Shown: positions 1 through 7,628 of the stretch, one piece after another
How positions within the stretch are numbered: the first letter of the stretch is position 1
How the letters are laid out: the number at the start of each line of letters is the position of its first letter
Origin: Armatimonadota bacterium
Lineage (GTDB): Bacteria > Sysuimicrobiota > Sysuimicrobiia > Sysuimicrobiales > Kaftiobacteriaceae
NCBI GenBank assembly: GCA_031459765.1
Contig: JAVKHY010000001.1
Span: forward strand, 1-64,000
Reading direction: 5' to 3'
Length of the DNA: 64,000 nt
Notes under the pieces: generated by a model
What the model saw: the letters and a program-made list of their open reading frames with translations, nothing else
Databases searched by the model: none
What the model was told of the DNA's origin: nothing
Translations under genes and position numbers: made by a program

Positions 1-1367
1 TCGTCGAGCGGGATGAGGCGCGGCGAGGCCCCCGTGCGTTCGCGGATCGCGTCCTCGCAGGACTGCAACCCGCACCAGCCGACCTTGACGAACCCCTTGA
101 TCCGGTCGATGGCCTCCGCCAGCTCGTCCAGCGTCGCCGCCTGCGTGGTGTGCGTATCGCGGTAGGCCTTCCCGCGGGTAAAGAGTTCGGCCTGGATCTC
201 GTCCAGAATCCGCCCGATCCTCTCTTCCAGCCCGTCCAGCGGCAGGGGCTCTTTGGCCCCTCCCGTGCGCCGGCTCAGCACGACCTGATGGTTCGCCACG
301 TCGCGCGGACCGATCTCCAGACGGACCGGCACCCCCCGCAGCTCCCATTCGTTGAATTTCCACCCCGCGGTATAGGCGTCGCGGTCGTCCAGTTTGACCC
401 GGAAGCGGGCGCTCAGCCGGGCGGCCAGCGCCTTCGCCGCCGGGATCACCCGGGCGTCGTCGCGGCCGAGGATCGGCACGATGACCACCTGGAACGGCGC
501 GATCCGCGGGGGCAGGACCAACCCTTTGTCGTCGCCGTGAGCCATGATCAACGAGCCGATCAGGCGCGTCGTCACGGCCCAGGAGGTGGACCAGATGTAC
601 TTCTCCTGGTTGTCGCGGTCCAGGAATTTCACGTTGAACGCCTTGGCGAAGTTCTGGCCCAGGAAGTGGGAGGTGCCGGCCTGGATGGCCTGGCCGTCCG
701 GCATCAAGGCTTCCAGCGTGTAGGTGTTGTCCGCGCCGGCGAAGCGCTCGCTGGGCGGCTTCACCCCCACCAGGACCGGGATGGCCAGCACCTCTTCGAG
801 GAGTTCGCGGTAGATGCCGAGGATCAACCGGCACTCGGCGTCGGCCTCTTCGCTCGTCCGGTGCGCGGTGTGCCCCTCGTGCCAGAGGAACTCCGCCGTG
901 CGCAGGAACAGCCGCGTGGCCTTCTCCCAGCGGACGACGCTGTTCCACTGCAGGAGCAGGATGGGCAGGTCGCGGTAGGACTGGATCCACTTGGCGTACA
1001 TGGGCAGGATGATCGCCTCGGAAGTCGGCCGCACCGCCAGACGCTCGCTCAGCTCCTCCTCACCGCCGTGGGTCACCCAGGCCACCTGCGGGGCGAAACC
1101 CTGGACGTGCTCCGCCTCCTTCTTCAGCAGGCTCTCCGGGATGAGCAACGGGAAGTAGGCCGTGACGTGACCCGTCTCCTTGAAGCGGCGGTCCAGCCAG
1201 GTCTGGATGCCCTCCCAGATGGCGTAGCCGTAGGGCCGGATGGCCATCGACCCGCGCACCGGCGTGTAGTCCGCCAGTTCCGCCCGCAGGGCGACCTGCG
1301 TGTACCACTCGCTGAAGTTCTCGGATTTCCTAAGCAGGGCCTGAACGCTCTCGCGCTCCTGCACCAC
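1..1367 (-). CDS. proS: Prolyl-tRNA synthetase, archaeal/eukaryotic-like type, 3'-truncated by window edge
   Basis: Class II aminoacyl-tRNA synthetase that charges tRNA-Pro in the cytosol. About 455 codons are visible and the 3' end runs off the window. The N-terminal half carries class II signatures: VRPTSEAIILPMYAKWI, then VRWEKATRLFLRTAEFLWHE, then the proline-pocket segment GTSHFLGQNFAKAF. A C-terminal anticodon-binding domain follows (VVIVPILGRDDARV). This order, without the long editing insertion of the Escherichia coli enzyme, is the ProS type 3 layout. The GTG start has AGGAGG 7 nt upstream; a GTG one codon later is an alternative. A T-box leader lies directly upstream, so expression should respond to uncharged tRNA-Pro. 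Confidence 0.93.
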   Translation of the reverse strand, partial: MVQERESVQALLRKSENFSEWYTQVALRAELADYTPVRGSMAIRPYGYAIWEGIQTWLDRRFKETGHVTAYFPLLIPESLLKKEAEHVQGFAPQVAWVTHGGEEELSERLAVRPTSEAIILPMYAKWIQSYRDLPILLLQWNSVVRWEKATRLFLRTAEFLWHEGHTAHRTSEEADAECRLILGIYRELLEEVLAIPVLVGVKPPSERFAGADNTYTLEALMPDGQAIQAGTSHFLGQNFAKAFNVKFLDRDNQEKYIWSTSWAVTTRLIGSLIMAHGDDKGLVLPPRIAPFQVVIVPILGRDDARVIPAAKALAARLSARFRVKLDDRDAYTAGWKFNEWELRGVPVRLEIGPRDVANHQVVLSRRTGGAKEPLPLDGLEERIGRILDEIQAELFTRGKAYRDTHTTQAATLDELAEAIDRIKGFVKVGWCGLQSCEDAIRERTGASPRLIPLD

Positions 1368-1404
1368 AACGGTTCCTCCTCTCGCCGTCGCCTGATTCCG
1401 CCCG

Positions 1405-1440
1405 CCAAACAAACAACCCCGTCCGCAAAGGGACGGGGTT
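1405..1440 (-). terminator. Intrinsic terminator of the proS T-box
   Basis: AACCCCGTCC pairs with GGACGGGGTT around a 6-nt loop, followed by GTTTGTTTGG on the minus strand. It sits between the T-box core and the proS ribosome-binding site, where a T-box terminator is expected. Confidence 0.85.
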
Positions 1441-1561
1441 CTCCCGTGGTACCACCCTCATTCCGGCCTGTCGACCGGCGCTCGTCCGCCGATATCGGGG
1501 CGGAACCGGCGCCCTTTCGGACGCAGGCTCGGGGGTGGGAACCCCGTCACAGCCCGTGTAC
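1405..1561 (-). promoter_or_regulatory. T-box leader of proS
   Basis: On the minus strand the leader carries the T-box core AGGGTGGTACCACG (1458 down to 1445), matching the family consensus AGGGTGGNACCGCG except G to A. It is followed at once by a GC-rich terminator hairpin. T-box RNAs bind uncharged tRNA and switch from terminator to antiterminator. From the predicted start near 1561 the leader is only about 155 nt, so stem I must be much reduced. I cannot assign the specifier codon with confidence; CCC triplets occur near 1535-1545. Confidence 0.85.
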
Positions 1562-1567
1562 GCCGGA

Positions 1568-1597
1568 ATTCTAGCATACGCCCCCGCCGCGTCGCAA
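1568..1597 (-). promoter_or_regulatory. Predicted proS promoter
   Basis: TTGCGA (1597-1592) and TAGAAT (1573-1568) are separated by 18 nt on the minus strand, which places transcription start near 1561. This is a housekeeping-sigma type promoter read by eye. Confidence 0.55.
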
Positions 1598-1640
1598 TGC
1601 AGACCCCGTGCTCGTCCGGACTCGCCCGGGCTGATGCGCG

Positions 1641-1669
1641 TTGACAGCCGGGGAACAGCGCAGTAGGGT
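1641..1669 (+). promoter_or_regulatory. Predicted promoter of the plus-strand fluoride-switch transcript
   Basis: TTGACA (1641-1646) is followed after exactly 17 nt by TAGGGT (1664-1669). Start would be near 1676, about 10 nt before the riboswitch aptamer. It is divergent from the proS promoter. Confidence 0.6.
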
Positions 1670-1685
1670 GGTGGTACCAACCGTA

Positions 1686-1738
1686 TAGCGATGGAGCTCG
1701 CGGAGCCGCCCGGTTTCGGGCTGATAGCTCCTACTGGT
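1686..1738 (+). promoter_or_regulatory. Fluoride riboswitch 1 (crcB motif)
   Basis: The aptamer contains GCGATGGAGCTCGC (1688-1701), a GCCCG-GTTT-CGGGC hairpin (1708-1721) and CTGATAGCTCCTAC (1721-1734). GGAGCT (1693-1698) pairs with AGCTCC (1726-1731), forming the pseudoknot of this family, and the conserved ATGG and CTGAT ligand-pocket segments are present. The internal loop reads GGAGCC rather than the usual A-rich stretch, which is the one clear deviation. The 3' strand of the pseudoknot overlaps the 5' arm of the following terminator. This is the known ON-switch layout: fluoride stabilises the pseudoknot and prevents termination. It precedes two uncharacterised genes, not crcB. Confidence 0.85.
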
Positions 1739-1759
1739 GTCAACCGGTAGGGGTTTTTT
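1728..1759 (+). terminator. Expression-platform terminator of fluoride riboswitch 1
   Basis: CTCCTACTGGT (1728-1738) pairs with ACCGGTAGGGG (1743-1753) over 11 bp including wobbles, with loop GTCA and tail TTTTTT. Its 5' arm is the pseudoknot strand of the aptamer, so the two folds are mutually exclusive. Confidence 0.88.
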
Positions 1760-1784
1760 ATGTGCGCAGGAGGGTGGACCCTGG

Positions 1785-2273
1785 ATGGCCGGAGCGCGCC
1801 GGATAGATGTGCAGTTTCTCGCGGACGACCTCCGTGAGATTGCCGCCCTGCTGCCCGAGGGGATGTCGCAGGAGGGGCTGGCCCGTCTCCTCGGCCAAGC
1901 CCTGACCCTCTTTCGTCGCGACGAGGCCGCCTGGCAGCACCTGGAATCCCGGGATGGACCCCGGGCGGAAGCGGAGCGGACCGAACTCAAGCGCAGAGAG
2001 ACCACGGCCCTGCTGGTCTCCATGCGCTCCCGCACCATCCTGAGTGAGATGGAGATGTACGAACTCCGGGAACGGGTGCGGGAACTGGGGCGGCGGCATG
2101 CGGAGCAACGGGCCGAGGCCGACCGCCTCCGGCAGTCCATCGCCCGGCTCCACCGTCGGATCGCCCAGGTGGAGGCGCTGCTCGCCGCTGCCGCCCCCTC
2201 TTCGAACCGCGACGGAGCGCGGTCTCCGGAACGCGGCCCGCTCACCGGGTGGTGGAGGAAACGCAATGGCTGA
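1785..2273 (+). CDS. Uncharacterised coiled-coil protein under fluoride riboswitch control (gene 1)
   Basis: A protein of 162 residues that I do not recognise. It begins with a short helical segment (DVQFLADDLREIAALLPEG), then charged helices dominated by Arg, Glu, Leu and Ala from about residue 55 to 135 (RERVRELGRRHAEQRAEADR) that should form a coiled coil, and ends in a low-complexity basic tail. There are no membrane segments, cysteines or catalytic motifs. ATG 1785 is chosen because the longer in-frame start at 1737 lies inside the riboswitch terminator; AGGAGG sits 11 nt upstream. It overlaps the next gene by 8 nt. The fluoride switch upstream implies induction by fluoride; the function is unknown. 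Confidence 0.75.
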   Translation: MAGARRIDVQFLADDLREIAALLPEGMSQEGLARLLGQALTLFRRDEAAWQHLESRDGPRAEAERTELKRRETTALLVSMRSRTILSEMEMYELRERVRELGRRHAEQRAEADRLRQSIARLHRRIAQVEALLAAAAPSSNRDGARSPERGPLTGWWRKRNG

Positions 2274-2751
2274 CGCCGCTCGCCCGGTCTTTCCTCCGTT
2301 GGCCGCCGTCAGACTGTATCTTCACGGCGACCTCCGAGGCGAGTTCGAAGCGATGATTCGCGATCGCGGCTGGACGGAGGAGGAGGGGGTCAAGATTCTC
2401 CTGGCCTACGCCGCGGCCGCCGCGCGCGGCCCGCGGCTGTCGCCCGACCAATCCCGCGACGAATTGGGCGCCGCGCGGGGCGAACTCTCCGTGCTCCGCC
2501 ACCGGGCCTTTATGGCGGATGACGGCATCAAGACGCTCCGGATGAACGTCACGGGATACGAAAAGTCGCTGGAGCAATTTGCGCGGACCCTGCCGCGGCT
2601 GCGGCAGGCAGAACAGGAACTGCAGGCGCGCCTGGAGCGGCTGCTGGCCGAGGCGATCCGTCTCGGGATCGAGCTGCCGCCCGAGGAGGATGAGCATCTG
2701 CCGCCGCGGCGCAGCTTCATCGACTTCTACCGCCGCCATGCGCGACAGTAG
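2266..2751 (+). CDS. Uncharacterised helical protein under fluoride riboswitch control (gene 2)
   Basis: A protein of 161 residues that I do not recognise. Residues about 15-50 form a compact conserved-looking segment (LYLHGDLRGEFEAMIRDRGW, then TEEEGVKILLAYAAAAARG) that could be a small helical domain. Residues about 65-135 are an amphipathic coiled coil, and the C-terminus (RRSFIDFYRRHARQ) is basic and aromatic. The start overlaps gene 1 by 8 nt with GGAGG just upstream, so the pair is translationally coupled and may form a complex through the coiled coils (inference). It ends 27 nt from the convergent stop of the DUF6062 gene. Confidence 0.72.
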   Translation: MADAARPVFPPLAAVRLYLHGDLRGEFEAMIRDRGWTEEEGVKILLAYAAAAARGPRLSPDQSRDELGAARGELSVLRHRAFMADDGIKTLRMNVTGYEKSLEQFARTLPRLRQAEQELQARLERLLAEAIRLGIELPPEEDEHLPPRRSFIDFYRRHARQ

Positions 2752-2778
2752 CGGAGCGCCGCCCCTCGACGCCGCCAG

Positions 2779-3534
2779 TTACGACGACTCTCCTGGGCGG
2801 TCCGACCGAGGATTCGTCTTCGCCCTCCGGAAAGAAGACGCAGTCCTTCCCTCCGCACCAACCAGCAGCTCGATGGCCCGCATCCAGGAGGCCGCTTCCT
2901 CCGGAGCGATGGGCTCGGCGCTGAAGCGGTAGTCGTGCTTACGGATGAGTTCGTCCAGATGCCGCCCGAGGTCGTCCAGGGCCGCGAGCTCGGCGTCGAT
3001 CAGTCGCGCCGCCGTCCGCTCGTCGGCAAGCGAGACGGCGCGGAGAAAGTGGGGCAGGCAGAGGGCGGAAGGGCCGCACAGGCGTTCCCACACCTCCGCG
3101 CGGGCAATCCGCGGCAGCAAGGCGTGCAGGGCGCCGTCCTCCATCGTCCGCACGTGCAGGCAGGCCGGACACTCGCCGCTCGGACGGAGCGCGGCGCGCA
3201 GGCGCAGCGACGACCGTGCCCGGCGCGGTCGGCTCGCCGCCGCTCGCCGGATGCCGGCGGCGAGGTCCTGAAGGAGATGGCGGTAGAGGATGGCGACGCC
3301 CATGGTGTCGCGGAGCGGGACGAGGGCCCAGGCATGGCGGGCGCAGAAACCGCGCGAGTCGATCAATTCGCGGCGGCTGGCGGGATCGTTCACCCGCTCG
3401 TAGAGGTATCCCCACAGGAACCGGGCGGCGCTCTCGTCTCCGATCCGGCAGATCGGACACCCCCCCGCCGCCAGCGCCTCTTCCACCCTGGCGAAGACGA
3501 GATCCGTGTCGGCGCGCTCCGGCGGTCGCGTCAC
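2779..3534 (-). CDS. DUF6062-like Cys-motif protein
   Basis: A protein of 251 residues with an N-terminal GCPICRI pair, a second RGFCARHAWAL motif near residue 80, a third GECPACLHVR motif near residue 140 and a CLPHFLRA motif near residue 185. This repeated C-x2-C / C-x2-H spacing matches DUF6062-type proteins of unknown role and suggests two metal or thiol sites. The GTG start overlaps the MFS stop as GTGA. It is the last gene of the operon led by the second fluoride riboswitch, so a role tied to that stress is possible but unproven. Confidence 0.7.
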   Translation of the reverse strand: MTRPPERADTDLVFARVEEALAAGGCPICRIGDESAARFLWGYLYERVNDPASRRELIDSRGFCARHAWALVPLRDTMGVAILYRHLLQDLAAGIRRAAASRPRRARSSLRLRAALRPSGECPACLHVRTMEDGALHALLPRIARAEVWERLCGPSALCLPHFLRAVSLADERTAARLIDAELAALDDLGRHLDELIRKHDYRFSAEPIAPEEAASWMRAIELLVGAEGRTASSFRRAKTNPRSDRPGESS

Positions 3535-4736
3535 GGCGCGGAGGCGGGGCGGATCTGGCGGTGCGACCAGACGATCAGGGGAATGGCCACGGCCTGGGCG
3601 GCGACCGAGAAGGCCACGAGCAGCGGGATGGAGACCGCGTAGAGGACTCCCATCGCCGCGCTCCCCAGAAACCAGCACAGTCCGTAGCCCGCATTGAAGA
3701 TCCCGTAGGCGGATCCGCGGCGGTCCGGTCCCACCATCCCGGCCACCGCGGCCCGCATGATGGACTCCTGCGCCCCCATGCCGATACCCCACAGCGTGAC
3801 GCCGAGCAGCGCGCCCTTCGCGCCGCCCAGGAAGGCCAGCGGCGCGAAGAACAGCGACAGCCCCACCCCCGCGGCGAGGATGCGGATGCCGAGGCGGTCG
3901 AAGATCCGACCGAAGCCCAGCGCGGCCAGGGCGTCCACGCCCATCGCCAGCGCGTACAGCAGGGGGATGGTCGCGGGCGGGACGACGGCCCGGCGGCCCC
4001 AGTGGAAGGCGAGGAGCGAGAAGTCGGCGTACCCGGCCCCGACCAGGGCCGCTCCGGCGAGGTAGATCCAGAAGGCGCGCGGCAGAACCGCCGCCTCCAG
4101 GCTCGTCGCCGTCGGCTCGAGGTCGCGCGGGTTCGGATGGTTCCGTCGCGCCGCCGCCAGCGCGGCGAGCGCCAGCGCGGCGGGGATGGAGAGCACCGCG
4201 AACCCCGCACGGTAGGAAGCCCGGGAGACCAGGACGCCCGCCACCGCCAGCGGTCCCAGCACGGCCCCGACCTGATCCAGCGCTTCGTGCAGACCGAAGC
4301 CCCACCCCCGACCCGTCCGGTGCGCGGCATGGGAGAGCATGGCGTCGCGCGCGGGGGTGCGCACCCCCTTCCCGATGCGCTCCAGAACGACGAGCGCAGC
4401 CGCGGCCGGCCAGGACCCGGCCAGCGCCAGCAGCGGCACTGCGCCGAGGTTGATCAGGTAGCCGGCGAAGGTGATGGTCCAGTAGCGGCGGGTGCGGTCG
4501 GCCAGGTAGCCCGCGCCCAGGCGCAGCGCGTAGCCGAGGAGTTCCCCGGCCCCGGCGGCGACGCCCACCGCGGCGGCGCTCGCACCCAGCAGGCCCAGGT
4601 ACGGACCGACGACGCTGCGCGCCCCTTCGTAGGTCATGTCGGCGAGGAGGCTGACGACGCCGAGCAGGACCACGAAGCGCACCGCCGCCCTGCGGGATTC
4701 GGGGCTTCCGCCCACCTCCCGGACGACCGTGGCCAT
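3531..4736 (-). CDS. MFS transporter in fluoride-riboswitch operon
   Basis: An integral membrane transporter of 401 residues with about 12 hydrophobic segments. The cytoplasmic loop between TM2 and TM3 reads GYLADRTRRYW, the usual MFS A-like motif, and the mid-protein loop RIFDRLGIRIL is its second-half counterpart. An ERIGKGVRTPARDAML segment is typical of a bacterial MFS subfamily of unknown substrate. It starts 1 nt after the uspA stop and overlaps the DUF6062 start, so it is co-transcribed from the fluoride riboswitch at 6.4 kb. Substrate unknown; fluoride, HF or an associated metabolite would be guesses. Confidence 0.85.
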   Translation of the reverse strand: MATVVREVGGSPESRRAAVRFVVLLGVVSLLADMTYEGARSVVGPYLGLLGASAAAVGVAAGAGELLGYALRLGAGYLADRTRRYWTITFAGYLINLGAVPLLALAGSWPAAAALVVLERIGKGVRTPARDAMLSHAAHRTGRGWGFGLHEALDQVGAVLGPLAVAGVLVSRASYRAGFAVLSIPAALALAALAAARRNHPNPRDLEPTATSLEAAVLPRAFWIYLAGAALVGAGYADFSLLAFHWGRRAVVPPATIPLLYALAMGVDALAALGFGRIFDRLGIRILAAGVGLSLFFAPLAFLGGAKGALLGVTLWGIGMGAQESIMRAAVAGMVGPDRRGSAYGIFNAGYGLCWFLGSAAMGVLYAVSIPLLVAFSVAAQAVAIPLIVWSHRQIRPASAP

Positions 4737-4737
4737 G

Positions 4738-5175
4738 CTAGGATTGTACTCCGGGGCCGACCACCAGCACCATGCACGGAGCATGATCCACGACCCGGTC
4801 GGCCACGCTGCCGACGAAGAACCGCTGCAGGTTGGACATCCCGCGGTGCCCCATCACGATCAGATCCATGCCGTGGGCGCGGGCGTACTCCACGATCGCT
4901 TCCGCCGGATGGCCGACGACGATCTCCAGACGCGGGTCGATGCCGTGCAGGCGCGCGTATTCCACGGCCTCTCTCTGGAAGCGCTCGACCACCCGACGTT
5001 GCTCCTGCGTGGCCTCCTGCACCTCGCCCATCGTGGCGGGGAAGGCCGGGACGTGGAGCGCCGTGAGCACGGTTACCGTGGCGCCGTAGCGGGCGGCCAG
5101 GTCCACGCCCACCTCCACGGCGCGCCTGGCCTGCGCGGAACCGTCGTGGGCGATGAGAATCCGGCCGATGGTCAT
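4738..5175 (-). CDS. Universal stress protein, UspA family
   Basis: A cytosolic single UspA domain of 145 residues. It begins RILIAHDGSAQARRAV and ends with the ATP-binding signature GHRGMSNLQRFFVGSVAD, which fits G-2x-G-9x-G-S. The start overlaps the antiporter stop as ATGA. UspA genes are known to occur behind fluoride riboswitches in other bacteria, and here it is second in such an operon. It may regulate the adjacent antiporter or transporter by ATP or AMP binding (inference). Confidence 0.9.
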   Translation of the reverse strand: MTIGRILIAHDGSAQARRAVEVGVDLAARYGATVTVLTALHVPAFPATMGEVQEATQEQRRVVERFQREAVEYARLHGIDPRLEIVVGHPAEAIVEYARAHGMDLIVMGHRGMSNLQRFFVGSVADRVVDHAPCMVLVVGPGVQS

Positions 5176-6341
5176 TCCGCCTCCTCCCCGGCGACCGGCT
5201 GCCAGAGGCTCTTCCGGGGCCCAGCGACCGCCCCCTGCCGGCGGGGATCGAACCACCGCTGGGCGATGACCGTGGGCAGTACGGCGCTCAGGATGACCGC
5301 GGTGACCAGCAGGGAGAACTGGGTGCGGTCGATGATCCCGGCCTGCAGGCCGTGCAGCGACGAGATCGTCCCGAAGGTGAGCCCGGTACTCATCAGCAGC
5401 GTGGCGTAGATCGGCCCTTCGGGCGCATGGCGGCGGGCCAGAGGGAGCACCCCGGCGACCTTGGTCACCAGCTTCACCCCGAGCAGCGCCGCCAGCACCC
5501 CCAGGTTCGTGTAGACGGCGGGCAGGGCTACATTCATCCCGGCCTTGATGAAGAAGAACGGCGTGAGCAGGGCGAAGGCGACGACCCGGAACCGCTGCTG
5601 CTCCGCGCGGTGCAGGGCGAAGACCCGGGAGACGGCCAGACCGAGGACGAAGGCGGGCAGCACGGCGTGGCTGTCGGCAAGACGGCCGAAGTACATCAGG
5701 ACGAGCAGGGCGGCAAAGGCACCCTTGATCTCCGGCTCGATCACCCGGTTCCCGTAGCGCCGGAAGAACCAGGGGTGCAGCCGGGGCATGGCCACGACGA
5801 CGGCCGCGGAGACGGCCAGGAACGCCGCGATCCACCACGTGGGACGGATAAAGAGGATGCTCAGCGCCGCGGCGGTGCCGAAGTCGGTGACGAAGGTGCT
5901 GGCCATGATGAGCTTGCCGAGCGGTGTGGCGGTGAGCCCCGTCTCCACGAGTACGGCGTAGACAACGGCGAGCGAGGTCGTGGACAGCGCCACGCCGGCG
6001 ATCTTCGCCGCGTCCGGCCCCCAGCGCAGGCCCCACAGGGCGAAGGCCCAGGCGCCGGCAAAGGGCAGCAGGAAGGAGAGACCGCCGAGGGCCAGGCTCG
6101 CGCCCAACTTCTCCCGCATCAGGTCCACATCAACTTCCGCGCCGGCCAGAAAGGTCAGGACGATGCTGCCGAATCCCGCCAGGTAGTCGATCCAGGGCGT
6201 CGTGTGCAGGCCGAGAAAGTTGCCACCGAGGACCCCGAGGACGATCTCGATGAGGGCCACGGAGACGCCCAGTTCCACGGAGAGGATCGCCGCCAGGAAG
6301 ACGAGCAGCCCCATCCCGACCGCGATCTGCGCATCGCCCAT
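5172..6341 (-). CDS. CPA2-type monovalent cation/proton antiporter under fluoride riboswitch
   Basis: A membrane protein of 389 residues with about 11-13 TM segments and the Na+/H+ exchanger fold. The membrane-embedded acidic motif is visible as STFVTDFGTAAALS near residue 150, and a second conserved segment is TPFFFIKAGMNVALP near residue 270. ATG 6341 follows a GGGGAG site. Antiporters are established fluoride-riboswitch targets in bacteria that lack Fluc or CLC-F; the presumed benefit is pH or ion homeostasis during HF entry. First gene of a four-gene overlapping operon with uspA, MFS and DUF6062. I cannot tell Na+ from K+ specificity. Confidence 0.9.
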   Translation of the reverse strand: MGDAQIAVGMGLLVFLAAILSVELGVSVALIEIVLGVLGGNFLGLHTTPWIDYLAGFGSIVLTFLAGAEVDVDLMREKLGASLALGGLSFLLPFAGAWAFALWGLRWGPDAAKIAGVALSTTSLAVVYAVLVETGLTATPLGKLIMASTFVTDFGTAAALSILFIRPTWWIAAFLAVSAAVVVAMPRLHPWFFRRYGNRVIEPEIKGAFAALLVLMYFGRLADSHAVLPAFVLGLAVSRVFALHRAEQQRFRVVAFALLTPFFFIKAGMNVALPAVYTNLGVLAALLGVKLVTKVAGVLPLARRHAPEGPIYATLLMSTGLTFGTISSLHGLQAGIIDRTQFSLLVTAVILSAVLPTVIAQRWFDPRRQGAVAGPRKSLWQPVAGEEAE

Positions 6342-6413
6342 GCACCGGTCTCCCCTCGGCCGCTGGAACGCGCAGCGGCCCCGTGCGCTCCGTCGAGCCG
6401 GGGCCGCGTACAC

Positions 6414-6446
6414 GAAAACAGCCCCTACCCGAACCGGGTAGAGGCT
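6414..6446 (-). terminator. Expression-platform terminator of fluoride riboswitch 2
   Basis: On the minus strand AGCCTCTACCCG pairs with CGGGTAGGGGCT over 12 bp with a 3-nt loop, followed by GTTTTCG. The 5' arm re-uses the pseudoknot strand AGCCTC of the aptamer. Confidence 0.87.
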
Positions 6447-6490
6447 ATCAGCCGGGACGTCCGGCGGTTCAGGCGAGCCTCATCGCCTCC
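6438..6490 (-). promoter_or_regulatory. Fluoride riboswitch 2 (crcB motif)
   Basis: Read on the minus strand: GGCGATGAGGCTCGCC, then TGAAC, a GCCGG-ACGTC-CCGGC type hairpin, and CTGATAGCCTCTAC. GAGGCT and AGCCTC pair as the family pseudoknot, and the pocket segments GATG and CTGAT are intact. It is closer to the crcB-motif consensus than the first copy. It lies between a consensus promoter and the antiporter gene, about 100 nt upstream of the start codon, and should turn the operon on with fluoride. Confidence 0.92.
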
Positions 6491-6496
6491 GGACTG

Positions 6497-6524
6497 ATTA
6501 TATCCGTGACCCTCTCGCTGTCAA
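6497..6524 (-). promoter_or_regulatory. Promoter of the antiporter operon
   Basis: TTGACA (6524-6519) and TATAAT (6502-6497), both perfect consensus hexamers, with a 16-nt spacer. Start would be near 6490, at the 5' edge of the riboswitch aptamer. Confidence 0.85.
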
Positions 6525-6546
6525 TCGGAACCTGCGCGCGGCGCGC

Positions 6547-6984
6547 TCATGACGTCTCCTGAGACTGGATCCGAACGGGAGCGCGCGCGCCGTTGAGATT
6601 CAACTGAGCGGCGAGCTTCTCCCAGCGGGTCATGCCGTGGTTGATCGCGACGATTCGCCCGCGGGGATCGATGACGACTGTGCTCGGGACCGTCATGATC
6701 CCGAATCGGTCGGCCAGATCAGGCTGGTCGGCCGCGTCTACCGCGCGGACCTCGACGCGTCCGGGATAGCGCCGCAGCAGTTCGTGGAGGGCCGGTTTCT
6801 GCTGGGTGCGGCACGGGACGCAGTCGGGCGTCGAAAACGCCAGCACCAGCGGCCGGGCGCGCCCGGGCGGCACCAGGTCAGCCGCCCCGGTCCGGCGGTA
6901 GCGGGCCGACCGCCAGCGCAGGATCAGCCAGACGATCGCCGCGCCCGCGGCCACCAGCATCAGGACCAGCAACCGGTCGGCCAC
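6547..6984 (-). CDS. Membrane-anchored thioredoxin-like protein
   Basis: A protein of 145 residues with one N-terminal TM segment (about residues 5-24) and a thioredoxin domain. The redox motif is CVPC in STPDCVPCRTQQKPAL near residue 55, and the cis-proline is in GIMTVPSTVVID. It should be an exported or membrane-tethered thiol-disulfide reductase. GTG start, 3 nt after the DUF4395 stop, so the two are co-transcribed from the promoter and cysteine leader peptide at 7.5-7.7 kb. A thioredoxin beside DUF4395 is also seen in actinobacterial thiosulfate-sulfurtransferase clusters, which matches the nearby rhodanese. Confidence 0.88.
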   Translation of the reverse strand: MADRLLVLMLVAAGAAIVWLILRWRSARYRRTGAADLVPPGRARPLVLAFSTPDCVPCRTQQKPALHELLRRYPGRVEVRAVDAADQPDLADRFGIMTVPSTVVIDPRGRIVAINHGMTRWEKLAAQLNLNGARAPVRIQSQETS

Positions 6985-6987
6985 GCG

Positions 6988-7428
6988 CTACTGCTGCGCC
7001 GCGGCTCGGCGGATGAGGCCGGCGCGGCGGAGCTGATAGTAGACGAAGCACCCGGCGCAGAAGTTGAAGACCACATTCACCATGGCCAGTACCGCGACGA
7101 GCAGTACCAGAGTCCAGCCCGCCACCGCCGCTCGCGCGGTCAGCGCGATCCATCCGGCGGCCAGAAACGCGGCGCCGACCCCCTGCGCAAATCGGTGCGG
7201 CGCCGGCTCATCGTCCACCAGGTTCGGACGCAGCCAGCCCAGCGGCAGAACGAGGCGCTGGTAGATCCCCCGGAACAGCCCCCAGGACGGCCGGGCGGTC
7301 GCCACCGCCAGAACCAAGGCCAGCAGCCCGGCCAGCCAGGGAAGATCGGCCAGGAAAGCGGCGGCCGAAACGACCGCGATGCTCACCTGATTGAATTTGA
7401 TCGCGTTGTGATCGACCTTCGTCACCAT
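6988..7428 (-). CDS. DUF4395 family membrane protein
   Basis: A protein of 146 residues with about four hydrophobic segments. The family signature is seen near the N-terminus (HNAIKFNQVSIAVVSAA) and at the C-terminal Cys pair in VVFNFCAGCFVYYQLRR. Function unknown; the CxxC at a membrane edge suggests a redox or sulfur-relay partner of the thioredoxin encoded 3 nt downstream. ATG 7428 follows AGGAGGGAGCG. The leader peptide and promoter upstream duplicate those of the rhodanese gene, tying both transcripts to the same signal. Confidence 0.85.
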   Translation of the reverse strand: MVTKVDHNAIKFNQVSIAVVSAAAFLADLPWLAGLLALVLAVATARPSWGLFRGIYQRLVLPLGWLRPNLVDDEPAPHRFAQGVGAAFLAAGWIALTARAAVAGWTLVLLVAVLAMVNVVFNFCAGCFVYYQLRRAGLIRRAAAQQ

Positions 7429-7523
7429 CGCTCCCTCCTCCGGACGCACCTGAATACACGAGATGCCACAACTACCGTCGGCGACGGTGGGTGGAAGCGG
7501 AGACGGGGTGTGCCTGAGAGCGA

Positions 7524-7628
7524 CTACGAGCGAGCCGGCGAAGGCACACGCTGCCTCCGCCGCGGACAGATGCACTGCCGGGGCGCGTACTGGACCGGCA
7601 ACCCTGCGCAGACGAATCGGAACGTCAT
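7524..7628 (-). CDS. Cysteine leader peptide B, upstream of DUF4395/thioredoxin
   Basis: A 34-residue ORF starting MTFRFVCAG and containing YAPRQCICPRRR near residues 14-25. The same PRQCICPRRR occurs in the leader peptide upstream of the rhodanese gene (9695-9769), in a similar position after a near-identical promoter. AAGGG lies 7 nt before the ATG. The RNA hairpin CGGCGGAGG / CCTTCGCCG (7562-7554 with 7544-7536) is also shared. I infer a ribosome-stalling attenuator responding to charged tRNA-Cys, by analogy with cysteine-responsive short ORFs of mycobacteria. Confidence 0.7.
   Translation of the reverse strand: MTFRFVCAGLPVQYAPRQCICPRRRQRVPSPARS

Follow-up and report, generated by a model that had tools for sequence, protein, structure and literature searches.

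The fluoride riboswitches of Rfam class RF01734 share a pseudoknot strand with a terminator, which is the ON architecture of the class (PMC2864571). Antiporters are the second most common class of genes associated with these riboswitches, behind exporters (PMC11139923), and the bacterial exporter families that have been reviewed are Fluc and CLC-F. In Enterobacter cloacae FRM, a universal stress protein (Usp) gene takes part in fluoride resistance (PMC5533749). Here we describe a block of about 5 kb, comprising six genes and two fluoride switches that face each other, near the start of contig JAVKHY010000001.1 (assembly GCA_031459765.1, Armatimonadota bacterium; GTDB lineage Sysuimicrobiota), the first 64,000 nucleotides of which, read on the forward strand, are referred to as the window. 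The Sysuimicrobiota (CSP1-3) have been split from the Armatimonadota, and the paper describing them makes no mention of fluoride (PMC11604079).

From the comparison reported below, we conclude that the island is likely to be a horizontally moved, fluoride-inducible tolerance cassette, and that this uncultured bacterium probably survives fluoride by means of proteins whose role has so far gone unrecognised, a candidate new exporter among them.

Results

The initial annotation of this DNA had described two facing fluoride aptamers, each with its own promoter and an overlapping terminator, and the scan of the whole 2.8-Mb genome with RF01734 (gathering cut-off, 34 bits) bore this out in outline: both sites matched the model, and pseudoknots and terminators are present in both. 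Aptamer 2 passed the cut-off, whereas aptamer 1 missed it (30.3 versus 34 bits) and is accordingly termed RF01734-like. Because the third-best match in the genome scored 15.8 bits, both aptamers are far outside chance, and they are the sole ones genome-wide. The loop pairs with the 3′ strand at 6/6 positions in each pseudoknot, as GGAGCT/AGCTCC in aptamer 1 and GAGGCT/AGCCTC in aptamer 2, the differences between the two helices being compensatory, and in both switches the 3′ pseudoknot strand doubles as the 5′ arm of the terminator hairpin. The promoter predicted for switch 2 is perfect, whereas that of switch 1 combines a perfect −35 box with a poor −10 box (3/6); in nearly all of the orthologous ccA switches, TTGAC[AG] and TAnnnT boxes stand at the equivalent place. 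By analogy with the known class, both leaders would be expected to bind fluoride and to switch the RNA.

Within the phylum, switches upstream of ccA scored 22-48 bits versus 42-61 bits for those of the CPA2 type. These ccA-type switches (among them L119 3818, L120 2361, L121 8623, L122 228, L062 5979 and window 1678) form a low-scoring sub-type without the AACC motif, unlike the CPA2, MutS and crcB switches of the phylum, and their affinity or specificity may differ. The GATG and TGAT core, the pseudoknot and the terminator are all retained in them.

Neither CrcB/Fluc (PF02537) nor CLC (PF00654) was found in the island or elsewhere in the genome, an assembly of 29 contigs with an estimated completeness of 99.2 %, and the same searches were positive in most control genomes. 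The initial annotation had proposed a dedicated fluoride-response island lacking crcB; since CrcB and CLC are both missing genome-wide, the case for such an island is stronger than was then stated. In a sample of 43 genomes of the phylum, CrcB occurred in 3 and CLC in 6. At E <= 0.01, a limit that admits some weak matches, about 25 of these genomes had a switch match; 18 of them lacked both CrcB and CLC, and 12 of those 18 carry the ccA-ccB operon.

The pair ccA-ccB was found in this phylum only. It is present in 14 of the 43 genomes, which span five families but are related and do not represent 14 independent events; 12 of the 14 have neither CrcB nor CLC. Every time, ccA is closely preceded by a same-strand RF01734 match, the spacing being 192 nt in one genome, about 23 nt in G005 and 16-45 nt in the other 12. 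By contrast with this constant linkage, the layout of the locus varies. It is convergent in G000, G020 and G023, with DUF6062 across the junction in the last two, and tandem in G011, G025, G028 and G031, some of these versions lacking one member gene. One switch precedes ccA-ccB-DUF6062-CPA2-Usp-MFS as a single operon in G014, and one switch precedes ccA-ccB-DUF6062-MFS in G005. Two-switch convergence was therefore rejected as the essential feature. What these genomes conserve is the set of genes, not its layout; because the same genes also occur in tandem or as a single operon, the face-to-face arrangement is incidental. Further switch targets in sister genomes include MutS-like, H+-pyrophosphatase, NADH dehydrogenase/hydrogenase-like and CrcB genes, which are known types of fluoride-regulon members. 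In G012 (L055 2203-4563, minus strand), an H+-translocating pyrophosphatase gene is downstream of switch-ccA-ccB-DUF6062. In family f7 (L056 6928-10804, L058 11634-8157, L125 8880-7939), switches stand before a MoxR-type AAA ATPase gene and two uncharacterised genes, a target set of which we know no description.

Alignment with the congener G001 suggests how the block came to its present site. Window positions 1-1556 and 6585-7590 both align with G001, where only 63 nt separate them, so the block is an insertion relative to that genome. In G001 a thioredoxin-like gene (trx) comes directly after proS with its T-box leader, and in other family members proS and trx are adjacent or at most one gene apart. 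In the MFS tree, the island's transporter clusters with that of G020, a member of another family (99/93), and not with that of G005 from its own family. Together, the congener site and this grouping point to a horizontally inserted cassette; that the relatives have lost it is a possible but less simple account. The island edges revealed no target-site duplication or terminal repeats beyond chance 8-mers, and no tRNA was found in the window. A T-box-like leader before proS (window 1426-1559, minus strand; 52.4 bits, short of its cut-off of 93) adjoins the insertion point, and proS itself is cut by the contig start. In G005, a tRNA-Asp/tRNA-Phe pair is followed after 30 nt by a fluoride switch (L050 7031-7281, minus strand) that lacks its own promoter and may be transcribed from that of the tRNAs, whose end may be a site of integration.

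Close homologues of the MFS transporter were detected in 15 genomes of the phylum, nearly all in a fluoride locus, the G029 copy lying at the end of a contig. A tree of 43 MFS sequences unites the 15 phylum copies and a copy from a Burkholderia cenocepacia plasmid in a clade (88/97), all members of which are in fluoride loci if the G029 copy is assigned by its genome. The B. cenocepacia plasmid region holds four fluoride switches, crcB, a CLC-type gene and MutS. More distant relatives adjoin crcB or eno/gpm in Streptomyces, Chroococcidiopsis and Aquicella, adjoin eno and a DUF190 gene in Mycobacterium branderi, lie near a switch-CPA2-Usp unit in Rubrobacter, and belong to arsenic or metal loci in Calothrix, Nostoc and Legionella. 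Others again have no fluoride context. Judging from the tree and these neighbourhoods, the subfamily is broad, and the island carries a fluoride-associated branch within it. A universal link of this transporter to fluoride was rejected, a switch being nearby in only 2 of 22 non-phylum genomes. No paper linking this MFS family to fluoride riboswitches was found in the literature searched, which was incomplete. A Calothrix plasmid arsenic locus (L138 1940-6158; GAPDH, ArsJ-like MFS gene, relative of the fluoride-locus MFS) hints at more than one substrate for the subfamily.

DUF6062 was present in 30 of 386 genomes. In 6 of the 20 such genomes from outside the phylum, representing five different families, a fluoride switch is immediately upstream of the gene, a linkage far above chance under a crude model. 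Two CxxC...CxxH motif pairs are conserved across phyla and suggest two zinc sites; DUF6062 probably acts as a soluble accessory protein that binds two zinc ions. In G179 (L196 1130-1376), also outside the phylum, two divergent fluoride switches set back to back control a DUF6062 gene and an MFS homologue. The same incomplete literature search returned no paper on DUF6062 and none on fluoride riboswitches together with domains of unknown function.

The initial annotation held that four members of the island have no known fluoride role. This holds for ccA and ccB, which look confined to the lineage, but not for the MFS and DUF6062 genes, which are tied to switches or crcB in other phyla. Neither ccA nor ccB matched a Pfam family; both are nevertheless real genes, because the ratio of nonsynonymous to synonymous substitution rates (dN/dS) among relatives is about 0.2-0.6 for each. 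Their profiles match each other (hhalign A1 versus A2, probability 92.9 %, E 3.6e-7), indicating that they are distant paralogues; the alignments comprise 9-10 sequences, and the structure models are single-chain. Foldseek matched the ccB model mostly to ribbon-helix-helix (RHH) proteins (NikR, CopG, VapB, MatP and others), each with an E-value above 1, and the N-terminal sequence gave weak matches to RelB (E 0.16) and, for one member only, RHH_5 (E 0.0022). The ccB product is likely to consist of an RHH-like domain and a coiled coil. Named relatives among 84,980 genomes came from 5 loci only, in Armatimonadota/Armatimonadetes or metagenome-assembled genomes. No ccB was found on plasmids, and phage families gave no convincing match to ccA, ccB or DUF6062.

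Gene calls and Pfam matches agreed with the six-gene content described earlier (Table 1). The Pfam cut-offs were exceeded for PF00999 (CPA2), PF00582 (Usp), PF07690 (MFS_1) and PF19538 (DUF6062). The minus-strand operon runs in the order CPA2 antiporter, Usp, MFS and DUF6062, and the plus-strand operon consists of ccA and ccB. CPA2 antiporter and Usp genes are classic genes of fluoride switches, and the pair is also present in fluoride loci of Rubrobacter, Methylocystis and Enterobacter, in the last together with MutS. The two transcripts had been thought to meet within 27 nt. A gap of 27 nt does separate the ccB and DUF6062 stops (2751 and 2779), but positions 2752-2778 contain neither a terminator-like site nor a stable hairpin and fold worse than shuffled sequence. 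The convergent transcripts therefore probably overlap instead of just meeting.

Table 1. Coordinates in the window of the parts of the fluoride island.
Feature	Position	Strand	Evidence
Inserted island footprint (missing at same site in congener)	1557..6584		alignment with G001 (L216/L210)
Promoter of switch 1	1641..1669	+	TTGACA, 17 nt, TAGGGT; -35 perfect, -10 weak (3/6)
Fluoride-type aptamer 1 (ccA type, sub-threshold)	1678..1740	+	RF01734 30.3 bits, E 1.7e-5, full length
Intrinsic terminator 1	1726..1760	+	overlaps 3′ pseudoknot strand of aptamer 1
ccA, 162 aa, N-terminal helical domain and long coiled coil	1785..2273	+	orthologue dN/dS 0.2-0.6; alignment A1; model pLDDT (predicted local distance difference test) 82
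ccB, 161 aa, RHH-like N-terminus (likely) and coiled coil, distant ccA paralogue	2266..2751	+	alignment A2, hhalign
DUF6062 protein, two CxxC...CxxH motif pairs	2779..3534	-	PF19538 51 bits; motif alignment
MFS transporter, fluoride-locus clade	3531..4736	-	PF07690 115 bits; tree
Universal stress protein (Usp)	4738..5175	-	PF00582 131 bits
CPA2-type Na+(K+)/H+ antiporter	5172..6341	-	PF00999 123 bits; TIGR00932 92 bits (under its cut-off)
Intrinsic terminator 2	6414..6446	-	overlaps 3′ pseudoknot strand of aptamer 2
Fluoride aptamer 2 (CPA2 type)	6432..6496	-	RF01734 43.2 bits, passes cut-off of 34
Promoter of switch 2	6497..6524	-	TTGACA, 16 nt, TATAAT; 12/12 consensus match

Discussion

In the mechanism that we propose, each transcript would begin at its own promoter and end at the leader terminator; when fluoride rises, the pseudoknot of the aptamer bound to F−/Mg2+ would retain the 3′ strand, formation of the terminator would be blocked, and both operons would be turned on. 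Judging from their families, the antiporter and the stress protein may offset the acidification and energy stress caused by hydrogen fluoride, while the MFS transporter would provide efflux of fluoride or fluoride-derived species in a cell without Fluc or CLC. DUF6062 would act as a zinc-binding accessory protein, and a ccA/ccB complex as a regulator or scaffold. We put forward only tentatively that the MFS transporter is the most likely efflux route. The wider proposals that its clade constitutes a third bacterial class of fluoride exporters beside Fluc/CrcB and CLC-F, aided by DUF6062 and ccA/ccB, and that ccA and ccB assemble through a coiled coil and an RHH-like dimerisation domain into a complex that regulates or scaffolds the response, are each more doubtful. 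If the former were true, the MFS clade would be responsible for fluoride efflux in a phylum most of whose genomes have neither known exporter class.

Several observations weigh against this interpretation. Switch 1 is under the Rfam cut-off, and the AACC joining motif is missing from ccA-type aptamers. The RHH assignment of ccB is built on individually weak matches, and a fold search with the ccA model produced nothing meaningful. Outside the phylum, the majority of MFS relatives have no fluoride switch next to them, the transporter occurs together with CrcB in some other genomes, and G012 has the ccA operon but no close MFS copy. Because of this co-occurrence and of G012, the idea that the MFS transporter is a simple stand-in for CrcB is unsupported. 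BenE-I, which improves fluoride tolerance but does not reduce internal fluoride (PMC13104614), was for that reason rejected as a precedent for non-canonical efflux.

Considering that the ccA-type aptamers score lower than the CPA2 type and lack the AACC segment, switch 1 might have diverged into a sub-class that recognises another ligand or responds at a different fluoride threshold, the two operons then answering different signals or doses. This is unlikely, since the core GATG and TGAT, the pseudoknot and the terminator have been kept, a single switch controls both ccA and CPA2 in G014, and the ccA-type switch also controls the MFS gene in G005 and G014. The convergence of the operons could itself be the device, overlapping antisense transcripts tuning both of them; such tuning would suit the 27-nt gap without a terminator-like site and the convergent loci of G020 and G023. 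However, the same genes are in tandem in G011, G025, G028 and G031 and under a single operon in G005 and G014, and DUF6062 lies across the junction in G020 and G023, which makes antisense tuning very improbable.

It is also conceivable that fluoride tolerance depends on the antiporter and Usp only, as classic members, with MFS, DUF6062, ccA and ccB being passengers or serving a co-occurring stress (arsenic, geothermal metals), as the MFS relatives in arsenic and metal loci might suggest. Passengers would not be expected behind a fluoride switch in 14/14 genomes, as ccA-ccB is, or directly after one in 6 non-phylum genomes, as DUF6062 is, and the MFS clade is restricted to fluoride loci; we regard the passenger explanation as quite unlikely. 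That CrcB or CLC-F was missed in an assembly of 29 contigs with an estimated completeness of 99.2 %, the island being an ordinary add-on, is very improbable: the same searches succeeded in most control genomes, both families are scarce throughout the phylum (3/43 and 6/43), and 12/14 ccB genomes have neither. A fluoride-inducible tolerance cassette thus remains our preferred explanation. It yields testable candidates, the MFS clade as a new efflux protein and ccA-ccB as a new lineage-specific protein pair, and a possible function for DUF6062, which is fluoride-linked in several unrelated lineages.

With the RF01734 class (Weinberg 2010, PMC2864571; PMC7266159, PMC11139923), the island shares the aptamer, the pseudoknot, the overlapping terminator, the ON logic and the antiporter and Usp targets, and sister genomes in the phylum have the MutS, H+-PPase, CrcB and dehydrogenase targets of the class. 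Unlike the regulons of that class, it belongs to a genome with no CrcB or CLC, its switch 1 is of a low-scoring sub-type, and its ccA, ccB, MFS-clade and DUF6062 targets are unnamed in the papers found. The E. cloacae FRM island, ppaC-uspA-eno-gpmA-crcB-orf5249, likewise combines six fluoride-induced genes, a fluoride riboswitch and a Usp gene in a genomic island that has moved horizontally (PMC5533749), but it has one switch, includes CrcB and duplicates of fluoride-sensitive enzymes, and lacks MFS, DUF6062 and coiled-coil genes. Plasmid islands of B. cenocepacia, Rubrobacter radiotolerans and Streptomyces sp. F8 carry MFS relatives beside switches, crcB or eno/gpm, and that of R. radiotolerans has switch-CPA2-Usp as here; they differ in usually having CrcB or CLC and MutS, and in having no ccB. 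In summary, the sensor and the overall logic of the island are known, whereas the set of targets, and their use in the absence of Fluc and CLC, are new.

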